Made by a program: the position numbers and the translations under genes
The notes under the pieces: model-generated
What the model was told of the DNA's origin: nothing
The model's database searches: none
Seen by the model: only the letters and a program-made list of their open reading frames with translations
Part shown: positions 22,803-35,363 of the stretch, in pieces
Layout of the letters: each line of letters opens with the position of its first letter
Position numbering within the stretch: position 1 is the stretch's first letter
Assembly: GCA_027024155.1 (NCBI GenBank)
Contig: JALVTE010000018.1
Coordinates: 1-50,572, forward strand
Origin: Campylobacteraceae bacterium
GTDB lineage: Bacteria; Campylobacterota; Campylobacteria; Campylobacterales; Sulfurovaceae
Length of the DNA: 50,572 bases
Reading direction: 5' to 3'

Positions 22803-22954
22803 TGTATAGGGTATATCTACCAAATTAGGCTTTTAATTTATTGGTATAAAACCTACTACTTTCTATATATAAAATCCTCAATCCTAACTTTCTATTAATA
22901 TAAAATTAACAATTCTTTATTATAATATTCTGATTAAATTTATAAGGAGAAGTG

Positions 22955-23656
22955 ATGAAGAAGGCTTTAGTTTTTTTAATGGTTGTGGTTTCGTTTTTGT
23001 TTGGTCAGATGAATGGTATGCCTGCGATGAAAAAGGGTATGAAGATGCACAATTTCCGTGCTGTGCCGTTTAAAAAGGCTCAGATTTTGCAAGATGGAAA
23101 AGCAAAAATGTTTTGTCCAAAGTGTGGAATGACTCTGCCTATGTTTTATCGAACAAACCACGCTGCAAAAGTAGATGGCAAAATGCAGCAGTTTTGCTCT
23201 ATGCACTGTTTGGTAGAAACTATGAAAAGTGGTGCCAAAGTTACTGATATTCAAGTTGTAGATAACAGTACATTAAAATTTATCCCTGTAGATAAAGCTT
23301 GGTATGTTGTTGGTAGTAATAAGCCAGCTACAATGTCAAAGGTTAGTAAATACGCTTTTGGAACAAAAGAGGCAGCCGAGAAGTTTGCTAAAGCAAATGG
23401 TGGTAAGGTTATGAAGTTTAATGAAGTTTTAGCAATGGCAAAAAAAGCTTTTGATAAAGAGGCTAAAATGATTAAAATGAAACAAGCTAAAATGGCTAAA
23501 ATGGGAGAGATGGTTTATAAAAAGAAGTGTAAAGAGATTGCTCAAAAGTTTAATACTGCTGCCGAAGCAAAAGCTTATATTAAAGCAAACAATAGTTGTG
23601 GTGGCTTAAAAGGTAAACCTCTACAAGCTGTTGGGCTTTACTTAAAAAGTAGATAA
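22955..23656 (+). CDS. NosL-like copper-binding protein with Met-rich and degenerate C-terminal parts
   Basis: The 233-residue exported protein has an N-terminal signal (KKALVFLMVVVSFLFG) and then a methionine-rich segment GQMNGMPAMKKGMKM. A NosL-like domain follows: MFCPKCGMTLPMF, QQFCSMHC, then AWYVVGSNKPATMSKVSKYA and FAKANGGKVMKFNEV. NosL-type proteins deliver Cu(I) in the periplasm. The last 70 residues (KKCKEIAQKFN ... NNSCGGLKGKPLQAVGLYL) look like a cytochrome-c-related segment without a CxxCH. The ATG at 22955 has AAGGAG. It lies just upstream of the redox operon and near an OprC-like copper receptor. Confidence 0.85.
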   Translation: MKKALVFLMVVVSFLFGQMNGMPAMKKGMKMHNFRAVPFKKAQILQDGKAKMFCPKCGMTLPMFYRTNHAAKVDGKMQQFCSMHCLVETMKSGAKVTDIQVVDNSTLKFIPVDKAWYVVGSNKPATMSKVSKYAFGTKEAAEKFAKANGGKVMKFNEVLAMAKKAFDKEAKMIKMKQAKMAKMGEMVYKKKCKEIAQKFNTAAEAKAYIKANNSCGGLKGKPLQAVGLYLKSR

Positions 23657-23942: not shown

Positions 23943-24191
23943 TACTGTTAAAAACAGTATTCTCTATACAATTCTAACAAATTACCCTTATTTTATTAAC
24001 TTCAGTTATTTGTTTTAGCATTAAATAATTATTTTTAAATAAAACCATTTTATTTGATTTGTTTTGATTACATAAAGTTATAATTTAAAACGAATATATG
24101 ATAGATATAATCAATATTAATAATAACTATTATAAAAAATAATTAATATTTTTTTAATAAAGTGTAGATACTATATTGTGTCAGGTTTTAA

Positions 24192-24252
24192 GCACCTTGC
24201 TCTTGAACGACCAAATTAAAGATACAAGGTGCCTTGGCGCTGTGAGCACCAA
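24192..24252 (+). promoter_or_regulatory. Structured leader with two hairpins upstream of the redox operon
   Basis: GCACCTTG (24192-24199) pairs perfectly with CAAGGTGC (24225-24232). Two bases later TTGGCGC (24234-24240) pairs with GCACCAA (24246-24252). The GGTGC of the first stem could pair instead with the GCACC of the second, so the two structures can be alternatives. It lies 58 bp before the lipoprotein start. It does not match any riboswitch class I know, so its function is open. Confidence 0.5.
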
Positions 24253-24310
24253 AATGATTATACCATATTTTTAATTTTTTTGGTCTCTTTTATTAAAGGA
24301 AGGAGAAGAG

Positions 24311-26191
24311 ATGAAAAAAACAGTAATCTATTTAGCGGTTACTGCAGGTGCAGTTATCGCTCTTAGTGGATGTGGTGGAAGTAGTGCAGGTGATTACCAG
24401 GGTGATGATACAAAAAGTAATTTTTACACTTTAAATAAACAAGGTGGAACTAACAGTCACCTTTTTTATGGTGAGGTAAATGAAAAATCTCTTGGTAGTT
24501 TAAAAAATGTCATTGTTGCTTCAGATATAAACACAACTCTTGATGTTAGATACCCAGTTGTAGATAGTTCATATGAAAAAATAGAAAATGGGTATAAAAA
24601 TCTTTATGTTAAAACTTTACATTATGTATCTGCTGGTACCGCTTATAGTGTTGATATGAATAAAAGTGCTACTCTTAATGCACAAGTAATAGAGAGTGGT
24701 TTGTCAAATCCGAGTTATACAGATGTTGATTATTTAGGAGTTAAGTGGTATTTGACTGCTCAAAAAGATGGTAATACTACCCTGATTACACCCCAAAATA
24801 GTAAAGTGCTTTTTGGTAATAGAAAGTTGTTGAGTGTAACATATTCAAGTTTTGGTGAAGCTATTGATGGCTATCTTGTATATAACAACGATTCTAATAA
24901 AATAGAGAAGTGCTCTTTGGATATGAGTTGCACAGATATTATGAGTGCAGGAAGTAGAGATTTTGAGGGAGATATTCTAGGTACAACTTACAGTGTAGTA
25001 TATAGTAATGACAAACTTTATAAAATAGATAAAAAAGATGGAAGTGCAACAGAGATTTCATTAGGTGGAGTAAGTGTAGCAAGCGGGCATGGAACTACAA
25101 GTTTGCAAGGGAATAGCTTCTATTTTATAGGGAGTGATAAAAATCTTTATAGAGTAAACATAGTAGATGAGAGCGTTAGAAAAATTACACCAAATTCGGA
25201 TGATAATTTAGAGGGAATCAGAGCATTTACTGATAGTTATGTAATTTACGGAAGCGATACTATACTAAAAGCAGCAAAAAAAGATGGTAGCACAACTAAG
25301 CCTTTTACTTTAATAGAGACAGGATTAACTAAAGGGTACAAATATGTTACAAATTATGGAGTTGGCGAAGATTTTCTTTTTGTTAAGTATTCGGTTAATA
25401 GGCAAACAGGGCATACAACTTATCAAGCGTGTATTTTTAATGATGGAAAAGTTGAATGTAAAGATAATAGTTTCTGGGCAGCAGTTACTATTAAAAAAGA
25501 TGGTAAGCGGGATTATGAATCAAGTTTTACATATACACCTTATGCATATGTTAGAGTAGATAATACCGATGATTTTGGTGGAGGAGATTTAAAAGCTATC
25601 GATCCAAAACACCCTATGGATGATGGTATTAAAATGGGTAATGTTAAAAACTATAATTTTCAAACATTTATTACAAATTATAGATATAAAGATACTTTAG
25701 TCGATAGTGATGGCGAAGTGATTCTTTATGCAAAAAATGATAATAATTTTCATGTAGATGCATTTAAAATGAATCTGCTTAAGAGAGACTCTTTAATGCA
25801 ACTAACAAATACCAATCCGGTAAATGTGGCAAAAGGTCGAGACCATTGCCATGGAAGAGTTTGTATGATTTGTCATAATTTAGCAGGTGGAAAGATTTAT
25901 ACTGATGTAAATGGAACAAAATCTGCATATAAACATAGAGTAAAACTTGAATTTGAAAATGGAGATACTGTTTTAACTGATATAGCAAAAGGTAAAGGAG
26001 AAAACTTTAGTACACTTTTGACAAATTTGACAAAGGGTAATTTTAAAGCTTATGTTTTAGATGAAAATAATACTGTAGTTAAACACTCTTTAGGGTACAA
26101 TCATAAAGGTGTAGAAGCGGCAAATTGTAACTATTGTCATGCCAGAGGAACTACAAGAAATGATGCACCAGGCACTATAAGTATTAAATAA
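24311..26191 (+). CDS. Di-heme c-type cytochrome lipoprotein with N-terminal propeller-like region
   Basis: The 626-residue precursor has a lipobox ALSGC with lipidated C21. About 450 residues of beta-rich sequence follow, with repeated units such as NDKLYKIDKKDGSATEIS and DKNLYRVNIVDESVRKI that recall TolB-type propeller blades. Two heme c sites are at the C terminus, CMICH (518-522) and CNYCH (606-610), with a beta-sandwich-like segment between them. It should be a membrane-anchored electron carrier outside the cytoplasm. The SD AAGGAAGGAGAAG is strong. It heads an operon with thioredoxin, DUF4266, DUF3570 and ApbE genes. No close named family is recognised. Confidence 0.85.
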   Translation: MKKTVIYLAVTAGAVIALSGCGGSSAGDYQGDDTKSNFYTLNKQGGTNSHLFYGEVNEKSLGSLKNVIVASDINTTLDVRYPVVDSSYEKIENGYKNLYVKTLHYVSAGTAYSVDMNKSATLNAQVIESGLSNPSYTDVDYLGVKWYLTAQKDGNTTLITPQNSKVLFGNRKLLSVTYSSFGEAIDGYLVYNNDSNKIEKCSLDMSCTDIMSAGSRDFEGDILGTTYSVVYSNDKLYKIDKKDGSATEISLGGVSVASGHGTTSLQGNSFYFIGSDKNLYRVNIVDESVRKITPNSDDNLEGIRAFTDSYVIYGSDTILKAAKKDGSTTKPFTLIETGLTKGYKYVTNYGVGEDFLFVKYSVNRQTGHTTYQACIFNDGKVECKDNSFWAAVTIKKDGKRDYESSFTYTPYAYVRVDNTDDFGGGDLKAIDPKHPMDDGIKMGNVKNYNFQTFITNYRYKDTLVDSDGEVILYAKNDNNFHVDAFKMNLLKRDSLMQLTNTNPVNVAKGRDHCHGRVCMICHNLAGGKIYTDVNGTKSAYKHRVKLEFENGDTVLTDIAKGKGENFSTLLTNLTKGNFKAYVLDENNTVVKHSLGYNHKGVEAANCNYCHARGTTRNDAPGTISIK

Positions 26192-26200
26192 GGATTGGTA

Positions 26201-26620
26201 ATGAAGAGAGTGATTTTATATATTTTATTTAGTACAATGCTTTTTGCTTACCAAAAAGGAGATAGCGTTAATGTTACTAATTTGGGTATTAGTTCAAACG
26301 GCGTTTATTTGGTTGATTTTTTTGCCTCCTGGTGTAACTCTTGCCAAAAAGAGTTACCACTAATTAAAAAGTTAAGTGCTAAAGGGGTTAATGTAATTGG
26401 TATTGATGTAGATGAGAATATAGATGATGCCAATAGGTTTTTGCAAGATATGAAGTTGAATTTTAGAGTTATTAAAGACCCAAAAGGAGATATTATTAAA
26501 ACTTTTAATCCTCCTGGTATGCCTGCAATTTATATTGTAAAAGATGGTAAAGTTATAGATACAATTTTTGGTGCTCACGATAACATTGATAGATATATTT
26601 TATCTAAAATAGGTGCTTAG
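26201..26620 (+). CDS. Exported thioredoxin-like protein (TlpA/ResA type)
   Basis: The 139-residue protein has a signal sequence (MKRVILYILFSTMLFA) and a thioredoxin fold. The active site is FFASWCNSCQKELPLI, followed by the cis-proline region PGMPAIYIVKDGKVID. It would reduce or exchange disulfides in the periplasm. AAGGA six bases before the ATG at 26201 fixes the start, 9 bp after the cytochrome stop. Plausible partners in the same operon are the cysteines of the DUF4266 protein and the heme-binding cysteines of the lipoprotein. Confidence 0.9.
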   Translation: MKRVILYILFSTMLFAYQKGDSVNVTNLGISSNGVYLVDFFASWCNSCQKELPLIKKLSAKGVNVIGIDVDENIDDANRFLQDMKLNFRVIKDPKGDIIKTFNPPGMPAIYIVKDGKVIDTIFGAHDNIDRYILSKIGA

Positions 26621-26621
26621 T

Positions 26622-26837
26622 ATGAGAGTAATGTTTTTAATTATTGTAGCACTTTTCTTTAGCGGATGTTCAATAAAAGAGGTAAAGCCATGGCAGAAAG
26701 AAATTTTGGCAAAAGAGTCTATGCAGTTTAGCGGAGGAGATGGTAATTTACGTAAATTTGTAAATCATATCTATTTTTCTAAAGAGGCAAGCAAAGGTGG
26801 AAGTGGCGTTGCAGGAGGAGGATGCGGATGCAATTAA
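26622..26837 (+). CDS. DUF4266 small lipoprotein
   Basis: The 71-residue precursor has the lipobox LFFSGC. The rest matches the DUF4266 pattern: VKPWQKEILAKESMQF, then a short linker, VNHIYFSKEASKGG and the terminal GGGCGCN. Two cysteines spaced by one glycine at the extreme C terminus could bind metal or form a redox pair. It starts 1 nt after the thioredoxin stop. Its last glycine codons also form the GGAGGAGG ribosome binding site of the DUF3570 gene, so the two are tightly coupled. The molecular function of the family is unknown. Confidence 0.88.
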   Translation: MRVMFLIIVALFFSGCSIKEVKPWQKEILAKESMQFSGGDGNLRKFVNHIYFSKEASKGGSGVAGGGCGCN

Positions 26838-27976
26838 GATACTCAATAATAGCTATATCTGCATTAGTTAGCTTTGCTAATGCTCAAAATTATGTTAGTG
26901 TGCAGTATATGGATTATGATGAAGATAGTGTTAGAACAACTGTTCACTCGCCACATCTTGAATTAAATTTAGATTTTGGAGCAGATTATACTTTAAATAT
27001 TAGTGGTGTAATAGATAGTTTAAGTGGTGCTAGTCCTACATATTACGATAGTTCAAGTGGTGCATCAGCAAAAATACCAAAAGGTTCTATTTTAAGTAGT
27101 GATATTGCTTATGGTGATATTCCATATTCTGATAGACGCAAAGATTTAAGCGTTGCTTTAACAAAGCGTTTGAAATCTCGTGATGAGTTGAGTGTTGGGT
27201 ATAACTATTCAACAGAGAGTGATTATATATCCAATGAACTATCTTTGGGCTATTTGCACTATTTAGATAAAAGTAAAAATCGCTCTATAGATTTTGGCTT
27301 ATCATATCAAAAAAACAAAATCAAAATTGGATGTTACTTAGGTAACAGTGAGTGTGATGGAGTTAGTGGGGCAAGTTCAAAAGTTGTAAATGAGTACTCT
27401 TATGTATTGAATACCCAAATTGGTTTTACGCAAATATTGGATAAAAACTCTTTAATTAAAGCTTCGCTTTTTTATATAAATGAGCATGGCTACTTAAGCA
27501 ATCCATATATGAGAATTGTAAGAGATTATAATACAAATCCTAGAATAACAGAAGAGAGAAAACCAGATACACGTCACTCTTACGGTTTAGGTTTAGAGTA
27601 TGACAGAGCAATCAATAGTAAGTTTACTACACTGTTTTCGTATAGGTTGTTTCATGATAGTTGGGATATAACTTCTCATACTTTTGAGACGCAACTATTT
27701 TACGATTTTAATAGTAAGTTGAGGTTAGGAGTTAATTTAAGGGCGTATCATCAAAGTAAAGCTAAGTTTTTCTCTGGCAAAAAAGATTACTTTACAAACG
27801 AGAAGTATGCCTCTAGTGACAGAAGAGTTGGAAAACTAAGCTCCTATAGTGCAAATTTGAGTGCAGAGTATAAAATTAACTCTAAATTTAGTATAAATGG
27901 TGCAGTTGGGTATTATAAACAGGTAGATTATTTTCATAGTAACTTTTATAATATTGGATTTAAGTACAGGTTTTAA
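26828..27976 (+). CDS. DUF3570 outer-membrane beta-barrel with three putative FMN-attachment motifs
   Basis: The 382-residue precursor has a signal peptide ending ANA and then many alternating amphipathic strands; the C-terminal residue is Phe, as in outer-membrane barrels. The start is the ATG at 26828, seven bases after GGAGGAGG; the ATG at 26822 is too close to that SD. The striking feature is three D-x-x-S-G-A-S sequences, at D63-S69, D74-S80 and D177-S183. These match the Dxx(S/T)GA(S/T) motif used by ApbE for covalent FMN attachment. Two cysteines (C169, C176) sit just before the third. The gene overlaps DUF4266, and the apbE start follows its stop. Confidence 0.87.
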   Translation: MQLRYSIIAISALVSFANAQNYVSVQYMDYDEDSVRTTVHSPHLELNLDFGADYTLNISGVIDSLSGASPTYYDSSSGASAKIPKGSILSSDIAYGDIPYSDRRKDLSVALTKRLKSRDELSVGYNYSTESDYISNELSLGYLHYLDKSKNRSIDFGLSYQKNKIKIGCYLGNSECDGVSGASSKVVNEYSYVLNTQIGFTQILDKNSLIKASLFYINEHGYLSNPYMRIVRDYNTNPRITEERKPDTRHSYGLGLEYDRAINSKFTTLFSYRLFHDSWDITSHTFETQLFYDFNSKLRLGVNLRAYHQSKAKFFSGKKDYFTNEKYASSDRRVGKLSSYSANLSAEYKINSKFSINGAVGYYKQVDYFHSNFYNIGFKYRF

Positions 27977-27977
27977 G

Positions 27978-28799
27978 ATGCAGTTTATCTATCGCTTTGA
28001 AGCTATGAGTACACCTTGTGAAGTGCAACTTTTTTCTGATTCTAAAGCAAAAGCAGATATGGTAGCTTCTAAAATTTTAAAAGAGGCGAAGAGATTGGAG
28101 TTAAAGTATAACTACTTTAATTCCAATTCGTTTCTTGCTAAAATTAACTTAAGAGTAGAGCAAAATTTAGATTTAGAGACAGTAACTTTAATAAAACGAG
28201 CAATCAAGTATTATCAAAATACAAATGGAATTTTTGATATTACTATTGCAACTATTAAAGATATATACAAAAGTAGCAAAAGTTTAGAGGAGTTAGAGCA
28301 GAAACGAAAAGAGCTTTTAGATTATGTAGGTTGTAAACATATATCTATTAAAAAGAGAAAGATATATTTTGACAACCATTATACAAAAATAGATTTAGGT
28401 GGTTTTGTCAAAGAGTATGCTGTAGATAGAGCAACTATTATTACTAAAAAAGCTGGAATTAAGAGTGCTCTAATAAATTTTGGAGGCGATATTTTTGCTC
28501 TTGGCAAAAGAGTAGATGGCTCAAAATTCAAAATAGGCATAAAAGACCCAAATAAGCCAACAAAAATAGTTAAATTTGCTGAGATAGAAGATGAAGCACT
28601 TACAACTTCTGCCTCTTATGAACGCTATGAAGTTATAGAGAATAAAAAATTTTCACATATAATAGCTAAAAAAAGAAGTAGTAGATATAAATCTGTAACA
28701 GTTGTATCAAATAGTTGTGTAGAGAGTGGGGTTTACTCTACGGCTTTAATGATAGATGATAATATAGAAACTTCAAATAAGTTGATTGTTTTTGAATGA
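27978..28799 (+). CDS. apbE: FAD:protein FMN transferase (ApbE)
   Basis: The 273-residue protein uses FAD to attach FMN to Ser/Thr of target proteins. Motifs in order are YRFEAMSTPCEVQLF, GIFDITIA, KIDLGGFVKEYAVDRA, ALINFGGDIFALG, TTSASYERY and SHIIAKKRSS. The start at ATG 27978 lies 1 nt after the DUF3570 stop, so the two are coupled. No signal peptide or lipobox is visible, unlike most ApbE proteins, which work outside the cytoplasm. The likely substrate is the neighbouring DUF3570 barrel, an inference from context and motif. Confidence 0.92.
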   Translation: MQFIYRFEAMSTPCEVQLFSDSKAKADMVASKILKEAKRLELKYNYFNSNSFLAKINLRVEQNLDLETVTLIKRAIKYYQNTNGIFDITIATIKDIYKSSKSLEELEQKRKELLDYVGCKHISIKKRKIYFDNHYTKIDLGGFVKEYAVDRATIITKKAGIKSALINFGGDIFALGKRVDGSKFKIGIKDPNKPTKIVKFAEIEDEALTTSASYERYEVIENKKFSHIIAKKRSSRYKSVTVVSNSCVESGVYSTALMIDDNIETSNKLIVFE

Positions 28800-30690: not shown

Positions 30691-32682
30691 TTAGAAACTA
30701 TATTTAACATTTGCATAGATATATCTACCTGGATTGTTTAGTCCAAGTTTTCTCTTTGCCCCTGTTGCTAAAAGTGTTAAGTCATTATAAGTATTTGAAC
30801 TTTGATATGTCTTATCTAAAATATTATCTACTCCGAAAGTAAAGGTTAAATTAGGAGTCATAACTTTTTGGAATTTAAAGTTTGCAGTAACAAATCCTGG
30901 AAGATGCTCTTCGCCATTGTCTCCATCAAAGTCGTTCCAACTCTTTTGCCCTATGAATTCAAGACTTAATTTTGTGCTATCTGTTGGTAGATAATTTAGT
31001 GTTAATAAGCCTCTTAATGGGGTAATATCTGCTAAATCTTTATCTGTTTGATTTGGAAGAGGATGCTCTTTTTTGCCTTTAAGATAGTTTACCCCAAAAT
31101 CTATATTGAATTTATCGTTAAAGATGTAGCTTCCGCTTAATTTAATACCGTAGACTTTTGCATCGATATTTACAAATTTATTTTTTGTTAGCTGATTGTC
31201 AAAGTATATATAGTTATCTAACTTACTATAGAAAACTTTTCCTTCGATATAGCCATTTTCAAAGCTCTTTTTGAGCCCTAAATCTATTTCTGTATTTCGA
31301 GTTTGTTTAAGCGTTGGTGTACCATATAGTACTCCTTTCTTTTTAAAATAGAGTTCTCGACCATCTGGTACTCTGTGTGATACTCCAATACCTGCTAAGA
31401 GCTCTAAGCTTGGTGTAATGGTGATATTATCGTAAATATAACCGCTTATAGCATTATAGTTTGGATTGTTAAGTTTATCATCGCTAGAAATTTTTGTATT
31501 ATCGTAACGAAGAGCTGTTTCGATAGAGTGGTTACCGATTTTTCTATTGGCTTTTACAAAAAGAGCACTGTTTTTTGTGACAGCATTATTGATACTATCA
31601 CCATTTGGAATATCGTGTTTTTTATAGTAGCGCCCATCCCAAGTTCTACGGCTATAATCTGCACCGAGCTCAATTTCGGTAGAGCCAATATCGAAACTAT
31701 TTGTAATTTTTGCTCCATAAATTTTGCTATGCATATGGTTTACAACTTCGCCCATTTTTCCGTTGGAAGCATTACGATATTTGGTACTCATTGGATGGTC
31801 TACTTTAGAGTAGTAGTAGAGCATTTGAAGCTTTTTAGAGTAATCTCCTAAATTTTTAACTGTATATTTTACATTATATAGGTCGCTGTCGTCTTTAATG
31901 GCATCCATTGGCGTATTTGGATAAAGTATATTGCTACTTCTGTTAGCTGTGTAGCTAAGTGCTAACTCTTGATTTTTTGTTGGGTAAAAATAGAGTTTTG
32001 AAAGTAGAGAAAATTTATCGTATGCATCCATATTTTCATACTTTTTTTGATATAGATTCATCTTCTGTGCACCGGCTTTTTTCATTTGGGCATTGAATTT
32101 GTCGCCATTACCATCTTTGTACTGCTGGCTATTCTCTCTTGAAATTGTTAAAAGAGCTCGTACTTTATCATTACCACCTTGAATTGTAAGCGACTCTTTA
32201 TTTTGTCCAAAGCTTCCGTAATTAAAGTTTAACTCACCACTAAAGCCCTTTTGTGAAGCTTTTGTAACTGCTTTAACAATACCGCTTAATGTACCGAAAT
32301 TCTCTACATCATACGGACCTTCGATTACTTTAATTGATTTAATATTGCTTGTAACAATATGCGAAATAGGCGGGTCCATTCTGTTTGGGCATCCACCGTA
32401 TATTTTACCACCATCTATTGTTACATTTACATTATCTCGCTTCTGCCCACGCACAATAATATCGTTTGCAATACCACTTCTTCTGCTTATAACAATATCT
32501 GGGTCTTTATTGCTTAAAGCCTCTCCTAAATCTGCCGATTTTAACTCTTCTCCTCTAATATCGTTAATATCAATACTGTTTAAATGCTCAACAACATTAA
32601 CTCCTTTAAGCTCAATACTCTGTGCTTGTAGGGTTAAAACCGTAATAGCACTGATTAAAATTATTTTTCTCCTCGCAATAAT
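30691..32682 (-). CDS. TonB-dependent copper receptor (OprC/NosA type) without a canonical start codon
   Basis: The coding frame is about 663 codons. It has a signal-like start (ARRKIILISAITVLTLQAQS), a plug domain and a 22-strand-type barrel ending in Phe. DGGKIYGGCPNRMDPPISHI is the signature of the OprC/NosA copper receptor group. C98-x3-M102 and H296-P-M298 match the CxxxM and HxM copper ligand pairs described for OprC. No ATG, GTG or TTG lies in frame between the upstream stop codon and the signal peptide. AUU at 32682 or 32679, or AUA at 32664, would have to serve, or the A5 run (about 32667-32663) is a 1-nt frameshift from a TTG at 32678. The operon continues with exbB, exbD and tonB. 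Confidence 0.85.
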   Translation of the reverse strand: MIARRKIILISAITVLTLQAQSIELKGVNVVEHLNSIDINDIRGEELKSADLGEALSNKDPDIVISRRSGIANDIIVRGQKRDNVNVTIDGGKIYGGCPNRMDPPISHIVTSNIKSIKVIEGPYDVENFGTLSGIVKAVTKASQKGFSGELNFNYGSFGQNKESLTIQGGNDKVRALLTISRENSQQYKDGNGDKFNAQMKKAGAQKMNLYQKKYENMDAYDKFSLLSKLYFYPTKNQELALSYTANRSSNILYPNTPMDAIKDDSDLYNVKYTVKNLGDYSKKLQMLYYYSKVDHPMSTKYRNASNGKMGEVVNHMHSKIYGAKITNSFDIGSTEIELGADYSRRTWDGRYYKKHDIPNGDSINNAVTKNSALFVKANRKIGNHSIETALRYDNTKISSDDKLNNPNYNAISGYIYDNITITPSLELLAGIGVSHRVPDGRELYFKKKGVLYGTPTLKQTRNTEIDLGLKKSFENGYIEGKVFYSKLDNYIYFDNQLTKNKFVNIDAKVYGIKLSGSYIFNDKFNIDFGVNYLKGKKEHPLPNQTDKDLADITPLRGLLTLNYLPTDSTKLSLEFIGQKSWNDFDGDNGEEHLPGFVTANFKFQKVMTPNLTFTFGVDNILDKTYQSSNTYNDLTLLATGAKRKLGLNNPGRYIYANVKYSF

Positions 32683-32890
32683 CCTTTAAAATAGAAATGA
32701 GTAAAATTATAAAATAAGATTGTTAATTTCATATTAATAATAAAATTTAATATTAAATTTAACTTTTACTTATATATTATATATTTTAGATGGGGAATTA
32801 ATTGTTTTTTATAAATAATTTTTGCTTTAGACATAAATCAATAGATTTTATTCTATTTTTAGTATAATAGCTACAAAAAAGGAAACTTAA

Positions 32891-34963: not shown

Positions 34964-35350
34964 TGGGTATAGCTGATAGTTGCCTGTTTTTTAACAGGAG
35001 GAAAGTCCGGGCTGCAGTGAGGCAGGATTCCATCTAACGGATGGCTGGGGTAACCCAAGGGCAAGTGCAACAGAGAGTAGACCGCTGAGAAGTAGGGTCA
35101 GACACGCAAAAGTTTCATTGCAATGCATTAAAACTTTTGATGTCAGACCCTACTTCTTTAGTAAGGGTGAAAGGGTGGTGTAAGAGACCACCAGTGCCTA
35201 TAGCGATATAGGTAGCTAGGTAAACCCAATCCGCAGCAAGAAGCACCAGGTAAGAGCCTCGCAATTAGCGTGCTTCGCTAGAGCTAGTTAGTAATAGCTA
35301 GAGTAGATAAATAACTATCTAATACAGAACTCGGCTTATGCTATGCCCAA
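34964..35350 (+). ncRNA. rnpB: RNase P RNA, bacterial type A
   Basis: The catalytic RNA that removes tRNA 5' leaders. The conserved parts read in order: AACAGGAGGAAAGTCCGGGC, CAACAGAGAGTAGACCGC, AGTAAGGGTGAAAGGGTGG, GGTAAACCC, and the 3' CAGAACTCGGCTTATG. The ends pair as helix P1 (GGGTATAGC with GCTATGCCC). The P12 region (about 35088-35160) is unusually long: AGAAGTAGGGTC pairs with GACCCTACTTCT, extended by GACA/TGTC and AAAAGTTT/AAACTTTT. Confidence 0.96.
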
Positions 35351-35363
35351 TTTTAAAATATAT

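Follow-up and report, generated by a model that had tools for sequence, protein, structure and literature searches.

A putative surface-exposed flavin electron outlet encoded by a DUF3570-ApbE locus of a Campylobacteraceae bacterium

The stretch of DNA studied here (hereafter the window; 50,572 nucleotides, positions 1 to 50,572 of contig JALVTE010000018.1 in the Campylobacteraceae bacterium assembly GCA_027024155.1) carries five genes, transcribed in one direction from position 24311 to 28799, that encode a di-heme lipoprotein, a periplasmic thioredoxin-like protein, a DUF4266 lipoprotein, a DUF3570 outer-membrane barrel, and ApbE, the enzyme that transfers flavin mononucleotide (FMN) from flavin adenine dinucleotide (FAD) to proteins. 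We consider it probable that the products of this locus form an outer-membrane outlet for electrons whose flavins are exposed at the cell surface, and our combined analyses indicate that the barrel very probably carries two or three covalently attached flavins on its outward face. The core of this system is known. The window locus is a variant of it, with a third predicted flavinylation site, an ApbE that lacks a signal peptide, sites that are predicted to face outward, and a di-heme partner; the signal-less ApbE and the di-heme partner make this variant unreported. When the gene starts are read from the sequence, all gaps and overlaps within the operon amount to 10 bp or less, and both the genes and their order are those given in the preliminary description of this DNA.

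The DUF3570 protein (26828..27976, +) matches Pfam family PF12094 with an E-value of 1.1e-57 and a score of 196 bits (cut-off 25). Its likely start, ATG 26828, corresponds to M3 and is invariant in 49 homologues; the open reading frame is also open from ATG 26822, from which the residue numbers used here are counted. The protein contains exactly three D-x-x-[ST]-G-A-[ST] motifs. Predicted flavinylation site 1 (DSLSGAS, residues 65-71, 27014..27034, +, acceptor S71) lies at the outward end of strand 3, site 2 (DSSSGAS, residues 76-82, 27047..27067, +, acceptor S82) in the outward loop 77-94, and site 3 (DGVSGAS, residues 179-185, acceptor S185) in the outward loop 168-191, where it forms, together with the preceding cysteine pair C171/C178, an element (27332..27376, +) that is found in only one of the two DUF3570 subtypes described below (type A). 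When the protein was shuffled 20,000 times, one such motif arose in 46 of the sequences and two in none. The preliminary description had counted the three motifs correctly but had placed them two residues too low (63-69, 74-80, and 177-183), since its numbers fit a count from ATG 26828.

The relevant passages of Meheust et al. 2021 (eLife, PMC8238504), the only paper that our literature search on DUF3570 and DUF4266 found, report two conserved [S/T]GA[S/T] motifs in DUF3570 proteins, a feature that the window protein shares at sites 1 and 2 and extends by a third. According to these passages, the ApbE of Chlorobium luteolum flavinylates the DUF3570 protein of that species, and the modification is lost only when both SGAS serines are changed. 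For this homologue, DUF3570 has thus been shown to be an ApbE substrate; the rest of our explanation we infer. The view that neither DUF3570 nor DUF4266 has an established role is out of date, and the central proposal of the preliminary description, that the barrel is the substrate of ApbE, is right but not new, because both the flavinylation and the gene cluster had already been published in PMC8238504. Further support for it comes from the co-occurrence of the two families and from the ApbE clade that matches each DUF3570 subtype. The gene for ApbE is present in 56 of the 397 genomes of the class, namely in all 10 that possess DUF3570 above the cut-off and in 46 of the 387 others (Fisher p about 1e-9, with related genomes not being independent). 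One further genome (G210) gave a DUF3570 match at E 2e-4 that was below the curated cut-off and had none of the neighbors; it was not counted. The source genome (G000) encodes a single ApbE and neither an FMN_bind nor a DUF2271 protein, rarer substrate families not having been searched, so that the claim that no FMN-bind protein is encoded nearby holds genome-wide for these two families.

To describe the relatives of the window locus, we assembled 50 DUF3570 genes with their flanks from Campylobacterota (window included), plus one gene from a Vibrio plasmid; this sample stems from whole-genome searches in Campylobacterota and from a few plasmid loci (Vibrio, Hymenobacter). A protein scan of the contig collection had yielded only one close relative. 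The order thioredoxin-DUF4266-DUF3570-ApbE is near-universal where the contig allows it to be seen. The Campylobacterota proteins fall into two subtypes, type A (25 proteins, including that of the window) and type B (25 proteins, about 25% identical). In type A, site 1 is present as DxxSGAS in all 25 proteins (in one as TGAT), the site 2 motif in about 23, and DxxSGAS at site 3 in 22; exactly three strict motifs occur in 20 of them. All 25 type B proteins possess a DxxSAAS-like site 1 and mostly DxVTGAS at site 2, and site 3 is absent from them, as it is from the Vibrio homologue. Sites 1 and 2 keep their aspartate and their final serine almost without exception. Site 1 of type B is degenerate, and the strict SGAS is hence not universal. 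Since replacing the motif glycine by alanine lowers the flavinylation of a model protein by about half (PMC12052999), site 1 of type B may still be used. The cysteine pair in the site 3 loop is found in at least 19 of the 25 type A proteins; five have no such pair, and four of these carry a run of aspartates in its place. Such runs (mostly 7-9 residues) precede site 3 at loci L024, L064, L065, L066, and L072, and replace the cysteine pair in four of the five.

An AlphaFold model of the DUF3570 protein, built on an alignment of 49 sequences from which the Vibrio plasmid sequence had been left out, has a mean predicted local distance difference test (pLDDT) score of 85.9 and shows 16 barrel strands with both termini on one side. 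Over nearly its whole length the model resembles solved barrels (PelB, BamA, BcsC, and porins; Z 16-21). The signal peptide, the even strand number, the short turns on one side, and a Z of 21 to the PelB and BamA barrels are those of an outer-membrane barrel. Foldseek also matched it to the Mtr barrel 6r2q_B and to many unrelated barrels, and we found no solved sequence relative of DUF3570. In the model, the sites lie at the ends of the upward strands 3 and 7. As a rule, the termini and the short turns of outer-membrane proteins are periplasmic; loops 77-94 and 168-191 should on this ground be extracellular, and by strand count all three flavin sites are predicted to sit at the outward end of the barrel, a placement that the preliminary description had missed. 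Hydrophobic residues alternate at the even positions 58-64 of strand 3, and D65 and S71 should therefore face the lumen.

These features can be joined into a working model. The ApbE without an export signal would use cytosolic FAD to modify the still unfolded DUF3570 chain with FMN at Ser71, Ser82, and Ser185. Judged from its signal peptide and predicted fold, the chain would then leave the cytosol through Sec, and BAM would fold it into a 16-strand barrel with extracellular flavin sites. Electrons could pass from cytosolic thioredoxin via DsbD and the periplasmic thioredoxin to the CGC tail of DUF4266; a parallel branch would run via the di-heme lipoprotein. Finally, the flavins would hand their electrons to an extracellular acceptor, for which Fe(III) or some other metal is the most likely candidate and sulfur the alternative. 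We propose this direction, the reduction of an outside acceptor, because it is the normal direction of DsbD, which is established knowledge. A Sulfurovum transcriptome paper, consulted for a link to S8 activation, mentions neither ApbE, FMN transferase, nor DsbD. Iron is weakly favored as the acceptor because of the aspartate-rich loops and of the links to the iron transporter VIT1 in the passages of PMC8238504, where 25 DUF3570 clusters hold this transporter. The same two observations would also suit a barrel for nutrient uptake (e.g., of iron complexes), in which the flavins would release the metal by reducing it locally, the same anatomy being put to another use. An ExbB/ExbD/TonB/TonB-dependent receptor set next door would fit such a function as well; this set is, however, convergent, lies outside the operon, and is found beside the operon elsewhere only in the closest relative (L036). 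We regard the uptake function as possible but rather unlikely, and prefer the electron outlet.

How many flavins the outlet would carry depends on site 3. The preliminary description had proposed up to three FMN groups; the third motif is confined to one subtype. It is conceivable, although we doubt it, that only sites 1 and 2 are flavinylated, as in C. luteolum: the logo in the passages of PMC8238504 has two motifs, and site 3 lies in a low-confidence loop, and neither type B nor the Vibrio homologue has it. Against this speaks the retention of DxxSGAS at site 3 in type A despite a loop that varies in both length and make-up.

The first gene of the operon (24311..26191, +) encodes a lipoprotein of 626 residues with the lipobox LSGC and two CxxCH motifs, CMICH (518-522) and CNYCH (606-610). 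Residues of about 150-500 form a beta-propeller-like middle part, and residues 500-626 a C-terminal di-heme domain; the protein has no Pfam or NCBIfam assignment. Full-length relatives were found only directly upstream of DUF3570 operons (in the window and at L023, L028, L036, L067, L073, and L074). The C-terminal 127 residues are related to the heme lipoproteins encoded upstream of type B operons; a profile of the domain detects the larger of these with E-values down to 3e-17 and the small ones at about 1e-5 and weaker. The invariant residues that they share include the histidines of both CxxCH motifs as well as H512 and H598. The latter two are candidate distal heme ligands as judged from their conservation, and this set of histidines would be consistent with bis-His electron-transfer hemes. 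Foldseek matches of the protein are assorted beta-propellers, and the profile of the di-heme domain found no solved relative, its best match (E 0.027) being to unrelated proteins. A multi-CxxCH protein is encoded in the same orientation no more than 2.5 kb upstream at 23 of 24 type B loci, at 7 of 19 type A loci, and in 3 of 50 background windows. The earlier suggestion that the di-heme lipoprotein, the thioredoxin, and the CGC lipoprotein feed electrons to the barrel is thus backed by gene linkage, which is strong for the heme protein, but the latter is not obligatory in type A.

The periplasmic thioredoxin-like protein (26201..26620, +; likely start ATG 26201) has a signal peptide and a CNSC sequence (residue 47), and matches the Pfam thioredoxin/AhpC-TSA models (6e-12); it is nearest to the ResA/DsbE types, all of its NCBIfam matches being below the cut-off. 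The DUF4266 lipoprotein (26622..26837, +; likely start ATG 26622; Pfam 1e-19) possesses the lipobox FSGC and ends in CGCN, with the CGC at residues 71-73; a C-terminal CxC is kept in all 50 homologues. With this DUF4266 protein, a thioredoxin-like gene, and ApbE beside DUF3570, the window matches the published clusters of these families, 285 of which, according to the passages of PMC8238504, are associated with DsbD (not every gene being present in each) and 316 of which are not. There is no DsbD gene in the window cluster, and by these published counts the linkage is not obligatory. The source genome encodes one full DsbD on another contig (L102); at several type B loci, as at the Vibrio locus, the DsbD gene stands beside that for ApbE. 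It is improbable, in our view, that the thioredoxin and the DUF4266 protein serve only in assembly, acting on the C171/C178 pair or on cytochrome cysteines, and that the di-heme protein alone exchanges electrons with the flavins. ResA and DsbE do act in cytochrome c maturation and a cysteine pair stands beside site 3 in 19 of 25 type A barrels, but the two proteins are linked to DUF3570 in cytochrome-free type A loci too and also accompany cysteine-free type B barrels, and DsbD clusters with them both in our sample and in the set described in those passages of PMC8238504.

ApbE (27978..28799, +; likely start ATG 27978) is a protein of 273 residues with a match to PF02424 (182 bits, 1.5e-53), and it aligns to the solved ApbEs 1vrm and 7esa through DLGG, GGD, and HII in its conserved FAD/Mg and catalytic segments. 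It possesses neither a signal peptide nor a lipidation site, a point that had escaped the preliminary description; its open frame of 290 residues has room for no more than about nine residues upstream of the called start. Judging N-termini by hydrophobicity and reading, not by SignalP, we found a credible signal peptide in none of the 43 linked ApbEs of Campylobacterota and Vibrio. Three of them passed the hydrophobicity threshold; of these, one begins within the ApbE domain, and the other two are long-frame artefacts with an internal start that is common to their relatives. In contrast, each of the 13 unlinked ApbEs of Campylobacterota that we compared has a hydrophobic N-terminus of the export type. 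This difference suggests that flavinylation takes place in the cytosol and precedes export. In the ApbE tree, the enzymes of type A and type B loci are separated from each other in accordance with the DUF3570 subtypes, and those of type A group with the Vibrio ApbE and a signal-less group encoded beside EF-hand genes. Two losses of the signal are likely, though not proven, because the tree was rooted at its midpoint and some long branches are unsure. A cytosolic ApbE that acts on an exported barrel would, as far as we know, be new. That Campylobacterota load FMN in the cytosol and pass flavinylated chains through SecYEG and BAM, so that three surface flavins wired by CxC and di-heme lipoproteins result, we regard as a real possibility that nevertheless falls short of being probable. 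Flavinylation only in the periplasm or on its side of the membrane, by an ApbE exported via a route unseen by our signal-peptide check and with flavins relaying within the periplasm, is quite improbable, since, even though most studied ApbEs are periplasmic lipoproteins (PMC12052999) and a linked Hymenobacter ApbE has a signal peptide, the contrast between linked and unlinked enzymes, the strand count that puts the sites at the extracellular end, and the existence of cytosolic ApbEs (K. pneumoniae, PMC12052999) all argue against it.

Several points weigh against the outlet as we propose it. The linked ApbE has a signal peptide in two Bacteroidota loci (Hymenobacter), and we know of no precedent for FMN-bearing chains that cross SecYEG and BAM. 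A multi-heme protein is absent beside 12 of 19 type A loci and is hence not obligatory. The AlphaFold model of the di-heme protein is poor (pLDDT 63.8) and too weak for the hemes to be placed. Parts of the loops with sites 2 and 3 score less than 50 in pLDDT, the outward orientation derives from the usual rule for outer-membrane proteins and not from direct data, and the electron acceptor is a guess.

Signal-less ApbEs that group with type A are also encoded in five other Campylobacterota (L113:2298-3619, L114:2987-4290, L115:2692-3800, L116:2868-4234, and L117:2329-3701), directly 3' of the gene for a small protein that likewise lacks a signal and carries an N-terminal SQS[GS]AS; the two such proteins that were tested (L113 and L116) are EF-hand proteins. 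This small protein is a candidate for an unreported ApbE substrate. Genome G358 contains two DUF3570 loci: L023:7405-10751, which has the di-heme protein and lacks the thioredoxin and ApbE, and L024:8104-10842, which has the thioredoxin and ApbE and lacks the di-heme protein. One signal-less ApbE may serve both.

Compared with known systems, the window locus shares its four core families with the DsbD-system clusters in the passages of PMC8238504, some of which likewise lack a linked DsbD; it differs by the third motif with its cysteine pair, the signal-less ApbE, and the di-heme lipoprotein. Those passages neither call DUF3570 an outer-membrane barrel nor place its sites outside the cell. The cytochrome-porin Cyc2 (PMC8406198) is likewise a 16-strand outer-membrane barrel with a redox cofactor for an extracellular electron partner. 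Cyc2, however, carries one heme in a domain fused at its periplasmic N-terminus, whereas here the covalent FMNs are predicted to face outward and the hemes are on a separate lipoprotein; DUF3570 has no CxxCH, its two cysteines being 171 and 178. Conduits of the MtrCAB type also combine an outer-membrane barrel with c-type cytochromes, but they consist of a 26-strand barrel with an inserted decaheme cytochrome, in contrast to the 16 predicted strands, the flavin sites on the barrel, and the partner with two CxxCH motifs found here, which likewise set the locus apart from PioAB. The cytosolic ApbE of Klebsiella pneumoniae also has no signal peptide; its target is a soluble fumarate reductase (PMC12052999), whereas the only known candidate target here is an exported barrel.

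An AT-rich gap of 654 bp lies 5' of the operon, with a strong hairpin (24160-24315; folding z -2.4) just before the di-heme gene. No Rfam element was found 5' of the operon, and promoter-like matches were not commoner than in shuffles. Just upstream is a NosL-like gene (22952-23656); at L023, a NosL-like gene and others resembling a nos cluster also stand upstream of the DUF3570 locus. In the ExbB/ExbD/TonB/TonB-dependent receptor set that adjoins the operon, the receptor gene (30691-32690, -) has an alanine codon where the closest relative, L036, starts with GTG-RRK; its start codon may have changed, the signal sequence still being open in frame. An OmpR-like response regulator is encoded within 5 kb of DUF3570 at 9 of 25 type A and 12 of 25 type B loci, counts for which there is no background rate. 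The window also contains a class A RNase P RNA (34964-35353).

Signal-less ApbEs occur in two clades and not in Bacteroidota, which raises the question of whether an FMN-bearing chain can be exported and folded. The genome survey in the passages of PMC8238504 removed ApbE genes lacking a signal peptide, and our data suggest that surveys limited to secreted ApbEs can miss enzymes that serve exported substrates. The di-heme domain common to both DUF3570 subtypes represents a cytochrome domain without a Pfam family and provides a concrete partner for the barrel. If flavins are indeed loaded in the cytosol and displayed at the surface, the locus would conduct electrons across the outer membrane in a way that differs from the known multiheme conduits. 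Campylobacterota are important in sulfur and nitrogen cycling, and the locus, if our explanation is true, would add to them a covalent-flavin outer-membrane electron outlet.

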